Shown: piece after piece, positions 47,038 through 56,397 of the stretch | How positions within the stretch are numbered: position 1 is the first letter of the stretch | Layout: every line of letters starts with the position of its first letter | Source: Sulfuriferula nivalis | Lineage (GTDB): Bacteria; Pseudomonadota; Gammaproteobacteria; Burkholderiales; Sulfuriferulaceae | Assembly (NCBI RefSeq): GCF_009937995.1 | Contig: NZ_AP021881.1 | Location: 2,976,001-3,040,000 of the forward strand | DNA: 64,000 nt | Direction of reading: 5' to 3' | Translations under genes and position numbers: made by a program | The notes under the pieces: model-generated | Database searches by the model: none | What the model was told of the DNA's origin: nothing | Seen by the model: only the letters and a program-made list of their open reading frames with translations

Positions 47038-47889
47038 ATGACTACAGCTATGAATTTACCTACATTAAGTAACAATGCCACCAGTTTGGAAAACTATATC
47101 CATACGGTGAACAACTACCCCATGCTCACACTGGAAGAAGAAGTGAGTCTGGGCAGGCAACTGCGCGATCAGGGTGACGTTGACGCTGCCAAACATCTAG
47201 TGTTGTCCCATTTACGTGTTGTAGTAAGTATGGCGCGTAAGTTTGTAGGCTATGGTTTGCCCCAAGCGGATTTAATTCAGGAAGGCAATATTGGCCTGAT
47301 GAAAGCAGTCAAACGTTTCGATCCTGACCGTGGTGTTCGTTTAGTGTCATTTGCCATGCACTGGATAAGTGCAGAAATGCATGAATACATCGTACGCAAT
47401 TGGCGCATGGTGAAAATTGCGACCACCAAAGGTCAGCGTAAACTGTTTTTTAACCTGCGCAGCATGAAAACCAGTGGCAGCAGCTTAACGCCAACCGAAA
47501 TCACTGATATTGCCGAGAAACTTGGTGTAAAGCGTGAAGAGGTTATGGAGATGGAGACCCGCTTCAGCGGTCAGGATCTCACGCTGGAGCCATTTGATGA
47601 CGATGGTGAGGAGACTTATGGTCCTTTGGCTTATTTAACTGACGCTGAAGCAGAGCCATCACAAATTTTAGCCCGTGCAGAACATGACCGCTTAAGCAGT
47701 ACTGGTTTAAACAACGCGCTGGCATCATTAGATGAGCGTAGCCGGCATATAGTTGAATCCCGCTGGCTGCAGGAAGAAAATCCTGCAACATTACACGAAC
47801 TGGCTGCTGAGTACAGCATTTCAGCCGAGCGTGTGCGTCAAATCGAGCAAAAAGCAATGCAAAAAATGAAACTTGCACTCCATGCTTAG
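47038..47889 (+). CDS. rpoH: RNA polymerase heat-shock sigma factor
   Basis: A 283-residue sigma-32 protein. Region 2 contains DLIQEGNIGLMKAVKRFDP and the RpoH-specific box QRKLFFNLR near residues 135-143, and region 4 ends with a helix-turn-helix (ERVRQIEQKAMQKMK). It directs RNA polymerase to heat-shock promoters. Its expression is likely controlled by the CIRCE element upstream. A perfect bidirectional terminator follows the stop. It is not fused to ftsX and is in the usual position. Confidence 0.97.
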   Translation: MTTAMNLPTLSNNATSLENYIHTVNNYPMLTLEEEVSLGRQLRDQGDVDAAKHLVLSHLRVVVSMARKFVGYGLPQADLIQEGNIGLMKAVKRFDPDRGVRLVSFAMHWISAEMHEYIVRNWRMVKIATTKGQRKLFFNLRSMKTSGSSLTPTEITDIAEKLGVKREEVMEMETRFSGQDLTLEPFDDDGEETYGPLAYLTDAEAEPSQILARAEHDRLSSTGLNNALASLDERSRHIVESRWLQEENPATLHELAAEYSISAERVRQIEQKAMQKMKLALHA

Positions 47890-47902: not shown

Positions 47903-47942
47903 ATCCAATAAAAAACCCGCTAATGCGGGTTTTTTATTGGAT
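47903..47942. terminator. Bidirectional intrinsic terminator after rpoH
   Basis: A perfect 18-bp stem (47903-47920 with 47925-47942), a four-base loop and a GC core CCCGC/GCGGG between A and T runs of six. It ends rpoH on the plus strand and the small membrane-peptide/ccoS unit on the minus strand. The outer arms match those of the terminator after rpmG. Confidence 0.92.
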
Positions 47943-47959
47943 CGATACATTAATACAAA

Positions 47960-48067
47960 TTAAGCAAAGATCACTACAGATAAGAAGCTCAACCATGCTG
48001 TTACAATTAAAGCCACTGTAATACCTAATGGCACAATACTATTATTACCAAATAACATTTCTTTCAT
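47960..48067 (-). CDS. 35-residue single-pass membrane peptide downstream of ccoS
   Basis: A small gene of 36 codons. It begins MKEMLFGNNS, continues into a hydrophobic stretch of about 20 residues (~11-33) and ends VVIFA. The ribosome site is strong: AGAGGG with six to seven bases before the ATG. It lies 49 bases after ccoS, on the same strand, and just before the shared terminator, so it is the last gene of the cbb3 assembly operon. Its size and topology match the tiny subunits of terminal oxidases such as CcoM and CydX. The sequence does not prove orthology. Confidence 0.65.
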   Translation of the reverse strand: MKEMLFGNNSIVPLGITVALIVTAWLSFLSVVIFA

Positions 48068-48116
48068 TTCACTACCCTCTAAAAAATATTAGCAAATTGT
48101 AAACCATTTCCCATCA

Positions 48117-48320
48117 TTAACGCAATTTTATGGAATCTACATCAGCTTCTGACCGGTTTGCAGGCAACATAGGGTCATCATCATCCATTAGAATCCGTTG
48201 AGCAGGACCTTCCATATCTTCGAACTGACCAGTTCTTATCGCCCAAAATATGCCCAGCACCATAAAAATAATAAATATAGCGGTCATAGTCAATAAAAAG
48301 ACCAAAGTTGAAGTCGTCAT
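48117..48320 (-). CDS. ccoS: Cytochrome cbb3 maturation protein CcoS
   Basis: A 67-residue single-pass membrane protein: a hydrophobic N-terminal helix (~5-28), then the family motif GIFWAIRTGQFEDMEGPAQRIL. CcoS is needed for cofactor insertion (heme b or copper) into cbb3 oxidase. It lies eight bases after ccoI, in the common ccoGHIS order. The D-D-D-D stretch and the tail are typical, and no residue is missing. Confidence 0.95.
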   Translation of the reverse strand: MTTSTLVFLLTMTAIFIIFMVLGIFWAIRTGQFEDMEGPAQRILMDDDDPMLPANRSEADVDSIKLR

Positions 48321-48328
48321 AAATTTAC

Positions 48329-50743
48329 CTATTTTAATCGCAACGCATTTAATACCACTATCAACGAACTAAGTGACATACCCAATGCTGCAAGCCATGG
48401 GGAAACATAGCCCATAGCAGCAAATGGCAACGCCGTCAGATTATATACTACCGCCCAAATCAAATTTTGCCGCATCACTACCAAGGTATTTTTACCCATA
48501 TCCAATGCGGCCACTACATCTGTCAACTTGCTGGACAGCAGTACCACATCACTACTTTGACTTGCTACATCCGTACCCGTTCCCATTGCGAATGAAACCT
48601 GTGCACCTGACAACACAGGTGCATCATTCACACCGTCACCCACCATGGCTACGACAGCACCCTGTGCTTGTAGTCGTTTAAGTTGATCAAATTTATCCTG
48701 TGGCCGTTGTTGCGACAGAAAGTCCGTCACTCCCAATTGTCGCGCTACGTATTCGACAGCCTGAGGTGCATCACCAGACAATATACTGACTGAAATGCCT
48801 CGTGACTGTAGCTGTTCGACAGCCATTTTTGCATCGACTCTCAAATCATCTGCCAACGCAAAGACCGCAATCACACGAGTTGCATCACATAGCCACACCA
48901 AAGTGGCTTGCTCCGAGTTAATTTGCAAATCCGTGATCGCATAAGCTTTACTTGCTAAAGCATAACCCTGGTTACCTATTGTATAGCTCACGCCTGAGAT
49001 CTCAGCAGCGATACCTTGTCCCGCAACATTAGTCGCATTTATGACTGGGTAAAGTTCAGTCGCTTCAACTTTATGCACGAAGGCGCGTGCTAATGGATGC
49101 TCTGATATCTGTTCTAAACTTGCCGCAATCTTTAAACTTTCTTCGATGGATATATCTGCAAACACTCGTATGTCAACAATTACTGGATGCCCCACCGTCA
49201 GCGTTCCCGTCTTATCGAAAACTACGTGGGTCACATGCGCAAGGGTCTCCATTGCATGCCCTCGCAAAACCAGGATACCCTTCTTAATCAGGTGTGACCC
49301 CGCAGCAGCCAATGCGGCTGGCACTGCCAGTGACAGTGCGCATGGACACGTCACCACCAACACAGATAGCACAATTTCAAATGCACGCGTGTGGTCAATT
49401 AGCAACCAAACAACACCAACCGCCAACGCAAACAGCAATAAACCCCAAGTAAACCAGGCAGCAACCTTATCTGCCAATTGGGCGATTTTCGGCTTTTCCG
49501 CTTGTGCTTTATCGACCAAACGAACTATGCCCGCCAATACAGTGTCTTCACCCACGCCTGTTACTCTGATCACTAACGGGCTATCGAGATTGACACTTCC
49601 AGCAATCACACCACTTCCATGCACTTTTATTATTGCGCGGGATTCACCTGTCAATAATGACTCATCTGCCGTTGATTCACCTTCGACAACTATCCCATCT
49701 GCTGCCATTGCCTCGCCAGATTTCACTAAAATCAAATCATCCGGCATAAGCTCCATTACAGGTACGTAACTTTGTTGCCCATCCTTTATCCGCATTGCCA
49801 TAGCTGGCTGCAACTTCAGTAAATTTTCTGCTGCCTCAACTGACTTTTCTCGCGCACCCGTTTCCAGCAACCTAGTCGCCAGTAAGAATAAGGTAAACAT
49901 ACCTATGGTGTCATAGTAAACGTGTGCACCACCAAACACGGTAACCCACACGCTCCCTAGGAATGCTGTAATTATTGCCAACGCGACTGGCACATCCATA
50001 TTCAGATGCCCTGACTTTATACCGCTCCATGCTGAACGATAAAATGGCATTGCAGCAAACGTAGCTACGGGTATTGTCAACATCATACTAAACCAGCGCA
50101 GCAGCTCCATTATATCCTGCGTCATACCATACCAGGCACCAGCATATAATCCTACGGCTAGCATCATCACCTGTGCGGAGGCTATTCCTGCTATAGCAAT
50201 GCGTTGTAAATCTTTTTTGTGCTTGGTTTTACGTAATTTATCTGCCTGATGGGCGTTATATGGATGCGCGTTATAACCTAGCAGTTGTATCTCTTTTAGT
50301 ATGGTTGATAAGTTTATCTTGCGCTCATCCCAGGCAACTCGTGCGCGATGACTCGCATAATTAACCTCGACGCTTATAACACCGTCTAATTGCCGTATGT
50401 GTCGCTCGTTTAACCAAACACAAGCAGCACAAGTGATGCCTTCGAGTATCAGTACAGCTTCTTTCGCGTTTTCACCTGAAACAATTACGAAACTGCGTTG
50501 AATATCAGGATGATCATATAACGCCAGTTTCTTAATTTCATCAGGTAGAACTTCTTGCCCGCTCGCAGGCATCGCTGTTCTGCTCTGATAATAGGCTTCC
50601 AGGCCATTATCGACTATAGACTGCGCGACCGCCTGACAACCACGACAACACATACCATGTTCATGACCTGCTATCTTTACTCGATAATCTATTTTAGGTG
50701 GTATCGTTTGACCACAGTGATAGCACGAAGTTGAATCTATCAA
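48329..50743 (-). CDS. ccoI: Copper P-type ATPase CcoI/FixI
   Basis: An 804-residue copper exporter that supplies Cu for the CuB centre of cbb3 oxidase. An N-terminal segment has YHCGQTIPP and a metal-binding CAAC (in TCAACVW), followed by eight membrane helices. The catalytic motif is DKTGTLT, preceded by the CPC copper motif (VTCPCALSL), with GDGVNDAP in the hinge region. It is full length. The stop/start spacing to ccoH is zero to one base, so the operon is tightly coupled. Confidence 0.96.
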   Translation of the reverse strand: MIDSTSCYHCGQTIPPKIDYRVKIAGHEHGMCCRGCQAVAQSIVDNGLEAYYQSRTAMPASGQEVLPDEIKKLALYDHPDIQRSFVIVSGENAKEAVLILEGITCAACVWLNERHIRQLDGVISVEVNYASHRARVAWDERKINLSTILKEIQLLGYNAHPYNAHQADKLRKTKHKKDLQRIAIAGIASAQVMMLAVGLYAGAWYGMTQDIMELLRWFSMMLTIPVATFAAMPFYRSAWSGIKSGHLNMDVPVALAIITAFLGSVWVTVFGGAHVYYDTIGMFTLFLLATRLLETGAREKSVEAAENLLKLQPAMAMRIKDGQQSYVPVMELMPDDLILVKSGEAMAADGIVVEGESTADESLLTGESRAIIKVHGSGVIAGSVNLDSPLVIRVTGVGEDTVLAGIVRLVDKAQAEKPKIAQLADKVAAWFTWGLLLFALAVGVVWLLIDHTRAFEIVLSVLVVTCPCALSLAVPAALAAAGSHLIKKGILVLRGHAMETLAHVTHVVFDKTGTLTVGHPVIVDIRVFADISIEESLKIAASLEQISEHPLARAFVHKVEATELYPVINATNVAGQGIAAEISGVSYTIGNQGYALASKAYAITDLQINSEQATLVWLCDATRVIAVFALADDLRVDAKMAVEQLQSRGISVSILSGDAPQAVEYVARQLGVTDFLSQQRPQDKFDQLKRLQAQGAVVAMVGDGVNDAPVLSGAQVSFAMGTGTDVASQSSDVVLLSSKLTDVVAALDMGKNTLVVMRQNLIWAVVYNLTALPFAAMGYVSPWLAALGMSLSSLIVVLNALRLK

Positions 50744-51538
50744 TCAACCCGCCTTTTTGGCCAACACATCACGATCAACTTCTAGCCTCTTACCTTCAGC
50801 CTCTATCTCTGTGCGCATTATCCATGTACCTGAATGTGGGATCGTAAACTGTCCATTATATTGACCCAATCCTCCATCATCCAATCGGCTCTCGGCAACA
50901 GCAGCAACATTCCCAGCCCGGAAAAACCTAACCTGTACATCTGCATTCAAAATTGGCTGATTTTGTTTATCGTGTAAATTCACCACAATCGCATTGGTTA
51001 ATTTCTCACCTGCAATTAAATTATTTACCCCGTCAATCTCGATTTTCCATCCCAAAGTTTGCAAACTGTTCAACTTTTTAAGCTGCTCTGCTTCAGGTGC
51101 ACCGGCATGTTCATCATGTCGGGTTACACCGGAAAATGCTGTGTATACAGGCTTAATATTTGCTTTCGGTAAAAACCAGCTAGCAACCTGTGTAGATACC
51201 CCCTTACTGGATATGGATACAAAGGAACCATCAACTACAAATAACACCATGAAAAATCCTATAAAAATTTTAGGAATCCAGTGCATACGGTTTGATGGTT
51301 CTTTCTTGGCACCAGTCAGCAGCGTCATAGCCGTTGCTGTAGATAAAAAAACCGCCAAGTGTATCGATACGGTGTCTAAACTCAGACCCTGAATCATGCT
51401 ATACGCCAATATAGCGATACTGACTAAAGCACCTGACACAACACCTCTCCAATAATTGGCAATACCAAACTTACCTAATATCAGATGTATTAATACTACT
51501 GCAACAACGCCGCCAAATAATGTTTGAATTAGACTCAT
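50744..51538 (-). CDS. ccoH: CcoH/FixH-domain protein with extended N-terminal membrane region
   Basis: A 264-residue protein. FixH-type maturation proteins are usually ~150-180 residues with one helix, but here three or four membrane helices (~5-20, 30-50, 55-75, 90-110) precede the periplasmic FixH-like beta domain (~165-260) that ends with GTWIMRTEIEAEGKRLEVDR. It should help assemble cbb3 oxidase, and the extra helices are unusual. It overlaps ccoG (ATGA, 51535-51538). Confidence 0.85.
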   Translation of the reverse strand: MSLIQTLFGGVVAVVLIHLILGKFGIANYWRGVVSGALVSIAILAYSMIQGLSLDTVSIHLAVFLSTATAMTLLTGAKKEPSNRMHWIPKIFIGFFMVLFVVDGSFVSISSKGVSTQVASWFLPKANIKPVYTAFSGVTRHDEHAGAPEAEQLKKLNSLQTLGWKIEIDGVNNLIAGEKLTNAIVVNLHDKQNQPILNADVQVRFFRAGNVAAVAESRLDDGGLGQYNGQFTIPHSGTWIMRTEIEAEGKRLEVDRDVLAKKAG

Positions 51539-52971
51539 GTGTGATTATGCTCATTGTAAAAGTTTGCTGACTCTTCACTACGATCAGCAGGGTTGGTTAA
51601 TGACTGAATTACAAAAGTGAAATGTTCGTATTTTTCTGCTAATTCAGGCTCTAGCTTTACGCTTGCCTGCACGATAACACTCTTACCGCTATGCACTGTG
51701 ACATTTTCCATACCACCTAAATCCAAAGCCTGTGGCGGTAAATTTTTAGCACTAATACTATAAACCGCATCTCTATCAGTTTTATTTGTCAGTCTAATTT
51801 GATACCTGTTTCTAATTTCCCCACTAGACAAAATCACAAACAAGGGTTGTCGAATCTGCTGCACACTCTCTTCAAACTCAGTCCTCTGGCTAATGCTATA
51901 TAACAAACCAAAAGTCATAACCAATATCGCAATCAAATATCCCGCAGCTTTCCAACGCTTCCAACTTATAGCTGGGGGCTTGGGAGTTTCCAAAGCCAAA
52001 TTCGCCTCGGAGTCGTATCGTATTAAACCCTTAGGGTAACCCATTGAATCCATTATATTATTGCATGCGTCTATACACAATCCACACGATATACACTTGT
52101 ATTGCAAACCATCGCGTATATCAATACCTGCCGGGCAAACCTGCACGCAAAAGCCGCAATCTATACAATCTCCATGACCTTGTTCAATACGTGTTTCCCT
52201 GCTCTTCAACTCACCTCTAGGCGAAATTCTGCCTTTTTCACCCTCACCTCTCCGAACGTCATACGCAACTGCTAATGTCTCAGGTTCGTACATTACACTT
52301 TGAAAACGTCCATAGGGACAAATATACGCACATATCTGTTCACGCATAAATGCAGCTGCCGCGTATGTGCTTAGTCCTAATCCAAGCACACCGATATAGG
52401 CTGCACTGGCTGCATCACCTGTGAAAAATCGCTTTAATAAATCCGGGGCATATCCAAAATACAATACAAATGTAATACCAGTCCAGAATGCAATCAGCAG
52501 CCAGATTAAGTGTGTTCCACCCACTTTGAAAATCTTTTCTGCATTCCAATCCTGCTTTTGCAACCGCAATCGAGCTGGACGCTCACCTTGTATGAATTGT
52601 TCCACCCATATAAACAAATCAGTCCACAAAGTCTGGAAACAGAAATAGCCGCAAAATGCCCGACCAATTAATGTTGTTGCAAAAAACAATATCGCAGCAG
52701 CTATAAATAAGAGTATTGCTAACCAGAATACATTCTGTGGATATACAACTAAATCGAATATGAAAAAACGGCGCCCATCCATATCAAACATCACCGCTTG
52801 TGATGCCGCATCATGTCTATGCCAAGGCAACCATGGCAAACCAAAATACACCGTATATGCCAATACTAAAACTGCAGTTTTAAAGTTACGGAATTTACCC
52901 TTTACTGAACGCGTAACAATAGGCATACGCTTCTCATAAAACTCAATTGGTTGCTCTGTTCCTGTCGTCAT
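51535..52971 (-). CDS. ccoG: Cytochrome cbb3 accessory protein CcoG
   Basis: A 478-residue membrane protein with cytoplasmic [4Fe-4S] motifs. Five helices (~35-60, 85-110, 155-180, 190-210 and 330-355), a YFCFQTLWTDLF segment and CPYGRFQSVMYEPET precede two clusters: C-x-x-C-x-x-C-x-x-x-C (CIDCGFCVQVCP) and CISCGLCIDAC. CcoG reduces copper before it enters the oxidase. I use the ATG at 52971, where GGAG is five bases ahead; a start at 52989 would lie next to the terminator stem. It begins the ccoGHIS unit. Confidence 0.95.
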   Translation of the reverse strand: MTTGTEQPIEFYEKRMPIVTRSVKGKFRNFKTAVLVLAYTVYFGLPWLPWHRHDAASQAVMFDMDGRRFFIFDLVVYPQNVFWLAILLFIAAAILFFATTLIGRAFCGYFCFQTLWTDLFIWVEQFIQGERPARLRLQKQDWNAEKIFKVGGTHLIWLLIAFWTGITFVLYFGYAPDLLKRFFTGDAASAAYIGVLGLGLSTYAAAAFMREQICAYICPYGRFQSVMYEPETLAVAYDVRRGEGEKGRISPRGELKSRETRIEQGHGDCIDCGFCVQVCPAGIDIRDGLQYKCISCGLCIDACNNIMDSMGYPKGLIRYDSEANLALETPKPPAISWKRWKAAGYLIAILVMTFGLLYSISQRTEFEESVQQIRQPLFVILSSGEIRNRYQIRLTNKTDRDAVYSISAKNLPPQALDLGGMENVTVHSGKSVIVQASVKLEPELAEKYEHFTFVIQSLTNPADRSEESANFYNEHNHT

Positions 52972-52991
52972 TTCATCTCCACAATGCAAAA

Positions 52992-53054: not shown

Positions 53055-53975
53055 TTACTTACCGCCACCCAATTCATGCACATACACAGTTAACAATTTG
53101 ATTTGATCAGCTGACAAACGATCTTGCCAAGCGGGCATTACACCCTTGTTCAAACCCTTACGAATCACATTCTTTACTGCAGCCTCTTTATCAGCAATTG
53201 TATCAGCGCCTGGAACATTAGCCCACAACCAGATTCTATCTGTTAAATTAGCAGAACCAATTTCTTGTCGACCATGCGCATTATCACCGTGGCAGTAGTA
53301 GCACGCTGCTGTTTCTGAGTGGAATAATGCGTTACCAGCTTGTGCACTGACAGGGTCAACTGCAATTTTTGATAAGCTCAATACATAATCAGCTAACTGT
53401 GAAACCTGCTTATCATCCAGAACTTCTGCGAAAGGCGGCATGTAACCGTGACGGCCATGAGTAATTGTTTGCTGAATTTTAGCAAATTCACCACCATACA
53501 GCCAATCATCATCTGTCAAGTTCGGAGCAAACCCAACCTTACCCGCACCACCTTGCTGATGGCAAGCCGCGCAGTTGTCAGAAAACAATTGCTTACCTGC
53601 TGATACCACAAAGCTGTCCAACTCAGGATCTTTCGTAATTTTCTCAAATGGCGTATCTGCCACTTTTGTATAATACGGCTTTTGCGCTGTTACGGCCTCG
53701 TTGGTCTCTTTCATTAACAACGCACGAGTATTCCAATGTGTTGTTTTTGTAACGCCCTTGTCATTCACGTAGGTAATCGTATCAAAACCTTTTGTATAAC
53801 TGCCACCTATTGGCCATGCCGGGTAAAGAAACCAATATATAACAGCCGCTGCCACACTGATGTAGAAAGAAACCAACCACCATGTAGGCACTGGATTATT
53901 ATATTCTTGCAAATCGCCATCCCAAGCATGACCCGTAGTTTGCGGTGCTGGCTTCTGTCCTGTTTTCTGATTCAT
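53055..53975 (-). CDS. ccoP: cbb3 oxidase diheme subunit CcoP
   Basis: A 306-residue membrane-anchored cytochrome c. After a short cytoplasmic part and one or two helices (~30-52) come two CxxCH heme c sites, CAACH near 135 and CYYCH near 223. It passes electrons to CcoN through CcoO. It overlaps ccoQ (ATGA, 53972-53975). Both heme motifs are intact and the C-terminus is complete. Confidence 0.97.
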   Translation of the reverse strand: MNQKTGQKPAPQTTGHAWDGDLQEYNNPVPTWWLVSFYISVAAAVIYWFLYPAWPIGGSYTKGFDTITYVNDKGVTKTTHWNTRALLMKETNEAVTAQKPYYTKVADTPFEKITKDPELDSFVVSAGKQLFSDNCAACHQQGGAGKVGFAPNLTDDDWLYGGEFAKIQQTITHGRHGYMPPFAEVLDDKQVSQLADYVLSLSKIAVDPVSAQAGNALFHSETAACYYCHGDNAHGRQEIGSANLTDRIWLWANVPGADTIADKEAAVKNVIRKGLNKGVMPAWQDRLSADQIKLLTVYVHELGGGK

Positions 53976-54160
53976 TTTTTATCTTCCTTGATCTCGGTCT
54001 CATCATCTAGGAATGGCATATCCTTGTATGTTTCTAACCGTTCACTTCGTTTTTTATCACCAAACACGTACAACATTATGAACACAAAAGTGACAAATAA
54101 GATCACCAGTGCAACAGGTTTAGTATGTTCAAACGAAGAAAACCAATTTAGCCATTCCAT
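53972..54160 (-). CDS. ccoQ: cbb3 oxidase small subunit CcoQ
   Basis: A 62-residue single-helix protein (VALVILFVTFVFIMLYVFG, ~17-35) with an acidic tail. It stabilizes the cbb3 complex. I use ATG at 54160, with AGGA eight bases ahead, because the earlier start would be a TTG. It overlaps ccoP (ATGA). Confidence 0.9.
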   Translation of the reverse strand: MEWLNWFSSFEHTKPVALVILFVTFVFIMLYVFGDKKRSERLETYKDMPFLDDETEIKEDKK

Positions 54161-54175
54161 TATCAAATTCCTAAC

Positions 54176-54919
54176 TTAACGATATTTGACGAACTCATCG
54201 TCATCATATTTACGGAAATCAACCATAGTGCCTAGCACTTGCAAATAAGCAACTAATGCATCCATTTCAGTAATATTTGAATTATCACCGTCATAGTTAT
54301 TTTCTTGAGCCTGCGCAATCAGATTCTTACGTGCATCCGCAATATTAAGTAATTTTGCCGTATCTGCACCAAATTTCTTAACGTTAGCTTCATATTCAGT
54401 TTTATTCAATGAATAAGGCACACCTACTGCACGCAACGCCATCATACGATCGGTTATATCAGAATAATCAAGCTCTGTTTTCAATAACCATGGGAAATTT
54501 GGCATTACAGACTGCGGAACCATAGATTTTGGATTGTTCAAATGCGCGACCTGCCATTCGTTGGAGTACTTTTTACCCACACGTGCCAAATCAGGACCGG
54601 TACGCTTTGAACCCCATTGGAATGGATGATCATACTGTGACTCAGCCGCTAATGAATAATGGCCATAACGCAGAGCCTCATCCCGGAATGGACGTATCAT
54701 TTGTGAATGGCACAAATAGCAGCCTTCACGTTGATAGATATCACGTCCACGTTGTTCTAAAGGTGTATATGGACGAACCCCATCAACCTTTTCAACTGTA
54801 TCTTTAATAAAGAACAGCGGCGCAATCTCCACCAAACCACCCACACTAATCGCCAACATAGTCAGCACTAACAAAAGACCAACGTTAGTTTCTATCCATT
54901 CATGCTTGAAATTAAACAT
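54176..54919 (-). CDS. ccoO: cbb3 oxidase monoheme subunit CcoO
   Basis: A 247-residue membrane-anchored cytochrome c. An N-terminal helix (~14-34) is followed by one heme motif CYLCHS near residue 68, and methionine-containing axial-ligand regions such as SVMPNFPWL. It accepts electrons from CcoP. It is 14 bases behind ccoN, in the usual operon order. Confidence 0.96.
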
Positions 54920-54933
54920 ATACGTTCTCCTTA

Positions 54934-56397
54934 TTAAGCACTGGCCATGCCAGTTATTTTAGCGTGACCAGCTGCGCGTGTTGCAGCTTCAGCCCGCACA
55001 GCTTTGCGTACAGTAACCATTACGTTGATAAACATCATCAACATACCAGTCACAAAGAACATTCCGCCAATTGCACGCATTGCATAGAATGGGTGCATAG
55101 CAGCCACAGACTCAACAAACGAGTACTGCAAATTGCCGTATTGATCAAATGCACGCCACATCAAACCTTGGGTAATACCTGATATCCACATAGCCGTGAT
55201 ATACAACAACACACCTATGGTAGCGAACCAGAAATGTACCTCTATCATCTTTTGGCTCCACATTTTGGTATTCCACAATTTAGGAATCATGTGGTAAAGC
55301 GATCCAAAACTAACCATTGCAACCCAGCCCAAAGCACCTGAGTGCACGTGACCTACAGTCCAGTCAGTGTAGTGGGACAACGCATTCACATCTTTCAGCG
55401 CCATTAATGGACCTTCAAATGTGGACATACCATAGAATGACAACGCCACAATCAGGAAACGCATAATTGGATCTGTACGCAATTTATCCCAAGCACCTGA
55501 CAAAGTCATAATCCCGTTAATCATACCGCCCCATGATGGCAACAACAGCATAATAGAGAATGTTGCAGCAAGCGTTGAAGTCCAGTCTGGTAAAGCAGTC
55601 CAATGCAAGTGATGCGCACCAACCCACATATACAAGAAACCTAGCGCCCAGAAGTGGATGATAGACAAACGATATGAGAATATAGGACGACCAGCTTGTT
55701 TAGGTACGAAGTAATACATCATTCCCAAGAACGCAGCTGTCAAGAAGAAGCCTACTGCATTATGGCCATACCACCACTGTGTCATTGCGTCCTGCACACC
55801 GGAAAACAAACTATAAGATTTCATCGAGAACAAGCTTACAGGCACAGCTAAATTGTTAAATGTATGCAATAAAGCAGTAGCCAGAATAAACGCCAGGAAG
55901 AACCAGTTTGCAACATAGATATGCGGCTGCTTACGGCGCATTATAGTGCCTACGAACAAGGCCAGATAAGTTACCCACACCACTTCAACCAGGATATCAA
56001 TAGGCCATTCCATCTCGGCGTACTCACGCGCCTGACTGTAGCCCAGCATATAGCTGATACCGCCCAGCATAATTGCTGCCTGCCAACCCCAGAAAGTAAA
56101 GGTTGCCATGCCATCGCTAATTAAACGTGCCTGACAGGTACGCTGCACTACATAATATGAAGTAGCAAATAATGCACTACCACCAAAACCAAAAATCACC
56201 GCGCTTGTATGCACTGGACGTAAACGACCAAAAGTAATATAAGGAATATCAAAGTTCAAGAAAGGCCACGCCAGTTCAGACGCTATGTACACGCCAACTG
56301 ACATCCCTATCAAGCCCCAAACTACGGCCATGATTGAGAATTTCTTAACTATGTCAAAATTGTACTGCTCTAAACTACTTACTTCTGTAGCCGCCAT
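54934..56397 (-). CDS. ccoN: cbb3 oxidase catalytic subunit CcoN
   Basis: A 487-residue heme-copper oxidase core with about 12 helices. Conserved histidines include [14 protein letters not shown] (low-spin heme) and [27 protein letters not shown] (CuB ligand and active-site region), and [12 protein letters not shown] near the C-terminal part. It reduces O2 at low oxygen with high affinity. First gene of ccoNOQP. No clear FNR half-sites were seen in the ~150 bases upstream. Confidence 0.97.

Follow-up and report, generated by a model that had tools for sequence, protein, structure and literature searches.

A conserved 35-residue membrane peptide encoded downstream of ccoS, a candidate accessory protein of cbb3 oxidase

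cbb3 oxidases carry much microaerobic respiration. To our knowledge, few bacteria are known to add small accessory helices to these enzymes, with CcoM described in Pseudomonas and CcoY in Campylobacter. In the window, by which we mean the whole stretch of 64,000 nucleotides of Sulfuriferula nivalis DNA analysed here, a short open reading frame lies directly behind the last recognizable cco gene. Is this frame, called pep35 in the following, a gene, and does its product belong to the oxidase? The original prediction proposed a new small subunit or assembly factor of cbb3 oxidase.

The minus-strand order in the window is ccoN, ccoO, ccoQ, ccoP, ccoG, ccoH-like, ccoI, ccoS and then pep35. A sigma factor gene converges on pep35 from the other side. 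We call it rpoH because of the usual order ftsE-ftsX-rpoH; the name does not rest on a model match. The features are as follows.

47038..47889, plus strand: rpoH-type sigma factor, convergent to pep35 (Sigma70 r2 and r4).
47903..47942, no strand assigned: terminator common to pep35 and rpoH, a perfect 18-bp inverted repeat with A and T runs (repeat and RNA fold).
47960..48067, minus strand: pep35, a 35-aa membrane peptide with a single predicted helix, of a putative new family (open reading frame, conservation, purifying selection, helix prediction).
48075..48080, minus strand: ribosome-binding site AGAGGG of pep35 (sequence; 7 nt 5' of the ATG).
48117..48320, minus strand: ccoS (FixS) (PF03597, E=2.2e-16; TIGR00847 over cut-off).
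48329..50743, minus strand: ccoI, copper-translocating P-type ATPase (Pfam and NCBIfam matches).
50744..51538, minus strand: ccoH-like, 264 aa (PF05751, E=1.8e-9; FixH/YtkA match at residues 152-254).
51535..52989, minus strand: ccoG polyferredoxin (PF13746, PF11614).
53055..53975, minus strand: ccoP (FixP_N and Cytochrome_CBB3).
53972..54160, minus strand: ccoQ, 62 aa, overlapping the ccoP start (translation; FixQ, E=1.2e-6, 28.8 bits against a cut-off of 29, with 61 of the 62 residues searched).
54176..54919, minus strand: ccoO (FixO, E=2.5e-93).
54934..56397, minus strand: ccoN (COX1, E=8.1e-122).

The window's genome contains one ccoN match (TIGR00780). In the ccoH-like protein, the FixH match is confined to the C-terminal half and the N-terminal part is hydrophobic.

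The pep35 frame starts with ATG and encodes the 35 residues MKEMLFGNNSIVPLGITVALIVTAWLSFLSVVIFA. The calculated mass of the unmodified peptide is 3796 Da, and that of the Sulfuriferula multivorans TTN copy (L111) 3793 Da. Its setting agrees with what had been predicted. The AGAGGG site occupies 48080-48075, seven bases 5' of the ATG. The frame follows the end of ccoS after a gap of 49 nt, an arrangement that is repeated in relatives. The expected shared terminator is the 18-bp inverted repeat in common with the convergent rpoH, with a loop of 4 nt and an RNA fold z of -7.88. A simple consensus terminator scan did not flag the repeat at 47903-47942; it flagged two other sites, neither above shuffles.

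The length of the frame is uninformative by itself, because 134 open reading frames of at least 25 aa overlap the 12 kb around it. Short frames are thus common in this region, and pep35 might be one that arose by chance and is conserved as DNA only. Two observations set it apart from chance: its amino-acid sequence is conserved in other families at the corresponding position, and it is under purifying selection. In the 16 closest independent pairs, differences occur at 73 of 333.5 synonymous and 31 of 1100.5 non-synonymous sites, a pN/pS of 0.13. The ratio is 0.21 with pairs of up to 20 differences (31 pairs) and 0.27 with up to 28 (48 pairs). The window gene and its closest relative (L032) are separated by 15 changes in 21 synonymous sites and 7 in 69 non-synonymous sites. 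When every pair with dS below 1.5 is included, the median dN/dS is 0.43 and 2338 of 2440 values fall below 1; these pairs are saturated and not independent of one another. Mean diversity at codon positions 1, 2 and 3 is 0.44, 0.21 and 0.60 (29 core columns, 123 distinct genes). A ribosome site of at least four matching bases precedes 112 of the 123 relatives versus 24% of 385 random ATGs; this count and the ATG start in 122 of 123 are both biased upwards because starts were chosen by ribosome-site score with an ATG bonus. With starts picked in this way by script, the relatives are 26 to 45 codons long. Conservation of the DNA alone and absence of a translation signal were the two outcomes that the original prediction had named as speaking against a gene. 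The diversity of 0.60 at third versus 0.21 at second positions, the low pN/pS in close pairs and the ribosome site in most relatives, biased as its count is, point the other way, and a chance frame is already refuted. Pep35 is under purifying selection as a protein, and it is a real, conserved small membrane protein gene.

The single membrane helix holds up as a prediction. Hydropathy and AlphaFold2 place it at residues 12-34, and the mean pLDDT of the AlphaFold2 model is 95 at residues 21-30 and 56 at residues 1-10. Among 29 members of the wider profile A4, the C-terminal end is charged in one; all remaining charges are N-terminal. The consensus reads [MLI]-F-S-[KF]-x-N-[LF]-P-[ML]-T-I-V-V-A-L-I-V-x-A-W-L-S-F-F-S-V-I-L. 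The most constant positions among distinct sequences are L20 (116/119), W25 (110/119, otherwise Y), S27 (116/119), S30 (110/119, otherwise T) and V31 (116/117). A conserved tryptophan and two serines inside a predicted helix suit a specific partner surface. Helical periodicity of conservation was not significant (P=0.21).

Pep35 is conserved in many Beta- and Gammaproteobacteria. With the peptide as query, 28 of 61 genomes had a match at the loose limit of E up to 10. Within the genus, 17 of 18 genomes match, the window's own included (E from 1.7e-17 to 0.08), and the sole non-matching genome (G010) is 64% complete. At a match threshold of E 0.01, profile A1 (30 members) detects relatives in 44 of 300 genomes and 19 of 134 genera of the order, and the wider profile A4 in 48 of 303 genomes and 39 of 235 genera of the class; these totals retain three probably spurious weak matches (G255 in the order, G328 and G400 in the class). 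In a phylum-wide draw of 299 genomes, A4 matched 5; two of these had been known before, and the other three are weak matches outside the class (E 0.004-0.008). A scan of named genomes yielded 38 loci, including Sulfuriferula multivorans TTN, Thiobacillus, Hydrogenophilaceae, Thioalkalivibrio, Ectothiorhodospira marina, Plasticicumulans lactativorans, Competibacteraceae and Leucothrix pacifica. Several of the genera that carry pep35 are known as sulfur or iron oxidisers.

The original prediction suggested looking for the helix frame behind ccoS in related genomes, and the place after ccoS is indeed conserved. Of the 48 carriers in the class sample, 39, from 22 families, encode pep35 on the strand of ccoS and 0-600 bp downstream of that gene. 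Among the 123 distinct genes, 81 have ccoS upstream within 800 bp, in both Beta- and Gammaproteobacteria, with a median gap of 55 nt (n=81). When rpoH is taken into account as well, 65 genes have ccoS and rpoH as neighbours, 16 ccoS only, 2 another cco gene and rpoH, 24 rpoH only and 16 neither. No cco gene stands just upstream in 40 of the 123, three of which have less than 800 nt of available upstream sequence. Many of the rpoH-only loci are of Thiobacillus or Hydrogenophilales type. In six genomes of family f43 (G059, G103, G143, G213, G271 and G300), pep35 and the best-matching ccoS are on different contigs or 240 kb apart. A 371-aa open frame in G454 raised the idea of a ccoS-pep35 fusion, which is ruled out by a stop codon that separates the two.

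The same neighbourhoods might be read as tying pep35 to the gene on its other side. It could serve rpoH, ftsEX or membrane stress, and its nearness to ccoS would then be inherited gene order. Convergent rpoH lies within 1 kb in 91 of the 123, and 24 genes keep it with no cco gene upstream. However, 16 keep ccoS with no rpoH within 1 kb (14 of these with at least 1.5 kb of downstream sequence), carriers are nearly all ccoS-positive, and rpoH is on the opposite strand with only the terminator in common. We regard a role with rpoH or ftsEX as improbable.

The link to ccoS extends to co-occurrence across genomes. FixS is present in 46 of 48 class carriers versus 168 of 303 genomes overall (hypergeometric P 2e-11, ignoring kinship) and in 43 of 44 order carriers versus 210 of 300 (P 8e-7, likewise ignoring kinship). 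The carriers lacking FixS are G328 and G400 in the class, both partial matches (E 0.002 and 0.004), and G255 in the order, a 20-residue match (E 1.7e-4). In the order, 223 of 300 genomes have a ccoN match (E up to 1e-50); two carriers, G050 and G136, have none at this limit, and their assemblies are 92% and 86% complete. Pep35 is not a general cbb3 subunit, since 122 of 168 ccoS-bearing genomes in the class and 167 of 210 in the order show no pep35 match at E 0.01. Five order genomes have two listed ccoS (G066, G110, G121, G195 and G225). In these, pep35 follows the lower-scoring ccoS, hinting at a tie to one cbb3 subtype.

Additional copies are also found, some of them away from the operon. 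A second free-standing copy in the same genome (G000:C1:2234100-2234204; L031:5001-5105) is 65% identical and has an AAGGAG site; no cco gene is present within the 10 kb examined around it. In G009 and G004, two tandem diverged copies lie between ccoS and rpoH (L034:5134-5592 and L035:5217-5675). The unlinked paralogues at L060:379-480 (G015) and L045:5060-5161 (G006) stand 190 and 332 bp 3' of a small c-type cytochrome frame (CMTCH) on the same strand. Those at L037, L039 and L042 adjoin a gene for what we take, from reading the sequence, to be a PACE-like membrane protein, with a presumed NasT-like regulator and phosphatase-kinase near and, at L037 and L039, a presumed NarK-like transporter. 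Over the whole set, the scattered paralogues have no common neighbour. FNR-like boxes scoring 8 or 9 of 10 precede 4 of 40 unlinked copies, which equals background (115 of 1092 windows). A CXXCH frame is near 3 of 40, and one of these (L164) is apparently rpoH read in reverse.

Such copies would be expected if pep35 were a small membrane peptide acting on its own, stress-related or toxin-like, and repeatedly duplicated. The tandem copies in G009 and G004 and the paralogues with no shared neighbour fit this explanation. The fixed place after ccoS in 22 class-sample families and the strong purifying selection go against it, and we consider it very improbable.

We therefore return to the oxidase. 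Place, selection, co-occurrence with ccoS and likeness in kind to CcoM, CydX, CioY and CcoY together suggest, with a probability of about two in three, that pep35 serves cbb3 oxidase as a so far undescribed accessory subunit or as a factor for its assembly or stability. Of these two roles, we lean towards the subunit. The original proposal of a cbb3 function thus stands as far as gene order and ccoS co-occurrence go; its fit is loosened by the absence of the gene from many cbb3 bacteria and by the unlinked and paralogous copies. As the putative last gene of a ccoNOQP-ccoGHIS operon, pep35 would encode a protein that inserts as one helix (residues about 12-34), with the N-terminus probably in the cytoplasm. 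We infer that it binds the oxidase. The conserved L20, W25, S27, S30 and V31 may pack against an oxidase helix, most likely of CcoN, CcoO or CcoP, and the packed helix would lend stability to the oxidase once assembled, or to a late stage of its assembly. More tentatively, and at slightly less than even odds, pep35 may represent an undescribed family of cbb3 accessory subunits in many Beta- and Gammaproteobacteria that takes CcoM's place, with paralogues possibly exchanging as isoforms under other conditions.

The chief rival stays within the same operon. Pep35 might assist CcoS or the copper pump CcoI while copper or haem is being inserted, and be absent from the finished enzyme. In linked cases, the nearest cco gene is ccoS, usually followed by ccoI, and the 33-aa one-helix CcoY beside the Campylobacter cco genes is reported to be needed for full oxidase activity (PMC8267372). 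On the other hand, three loci (L080, L089 and L132) have a ccoH-like gene, not ccoI, just before ccoS, and the Thiobacillus loci L114, L115 and L127 contain no cco gene in the available stretch (less than 600 nt upstream in L127). We judge this helper role unlikely. If the accessory reading is true, cbb3 oxidase would have recruited tiny stabilising proteins more than once, since pep35 would add a further, unrelated and widespread helix encoded at the end of the assembly cassette. Pep35 is also a gene that can be tested in culturable bacteria, and its profile can be used for annotation.

How does pep35 compare with known families? No Pfam or NCBIfam model matches it over cut-off, and a single-sequence query of the PDB gave no match at E up to 10. 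The profile query of the PDB returned eight mineralocorticoid receptor sequences (E 0.04-0.09), taken as chance. In PHROGs, 5 of 29 members hit one family with a best E of 0.0029, which we attribute to noise among hydrophobic helices. DUF7186 (PF23815) reached 13.3 bits (E=0.079) versus a Pfam cut-off of 27 bits, and 2 of 30 members match it at E up to 1. Among small respiratory proteins, there was no Pfam match to TorE/NapE, for which Pfam presumably contains a NapE model. CcoQ/FixQ and CcoS/FixS resemble pep35 as small one-helix proteins of the same operon; each, however, is encoded separately in the window and lacks similarity to it. There is no PF05545 match, and hhalign against the window's CcoQ (61 of 62 residues) was negative; neither PF03597 nor TIGR00847 matches pep35. 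For CcoM, we take PDB 5djq chain N, which the PDB itself labels an uncharacterized protein; hhalign detected no relation between it and pep35, with a probability of 0.3%. This chain ends in the basic tail RDAHKKS, which pep35 lacks, whereas pep35 has its charges at the N-terminus and none at the C-terminus. Such placement suggests that the two helices would have opposite membrane orientations, the side of the membrane being deduced from the charges.

In the open-licence literature searched, no description of the pep35 gene was found among the matches listed, and no paper joins ccoS, rpoH and cbb3. Several proteins of the same kind have been described. CcoM is a 36-aa single-helix subunit of the Pseudomonas stutzeri cbb3 oxidase (PMC10433244; PMC9264385), and so resembles pep35 in length, single helix and tie to cbb3 oxidase. 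In Pseudomonas, it is reported to stabilise the assembled oxidase or a late assembly step (PMC8267372). CcoY (Cj1485) of the Campylobacter jejuni cco cluster has 33 aa and one helix, and its deletion lowers oxidase activity (PMC8267372). It is like pep35 in size, helix and place in an oxidase gene cluster, but its gene is flanked by ccoP and ccoH, its host belongs to a distant group, and it is set beside pep35 by its description. CydX and CioY are tiny one-helix partners of bd-type oxidases (PMC11955535). They belong to another oxidase class, and no CydX model is among the Pfam and NCBIfam matches of pep35. With fewer than about 50 aa, a predicted helix and a gene encoded with oxidase genes in many lineages, pep35 shares these features with the small one-helix oxidase accessory proteins. 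Judged from its sequence, pep35 is a new family of an already known kind, like CcoM or CydX in kind and separate from both as a family.
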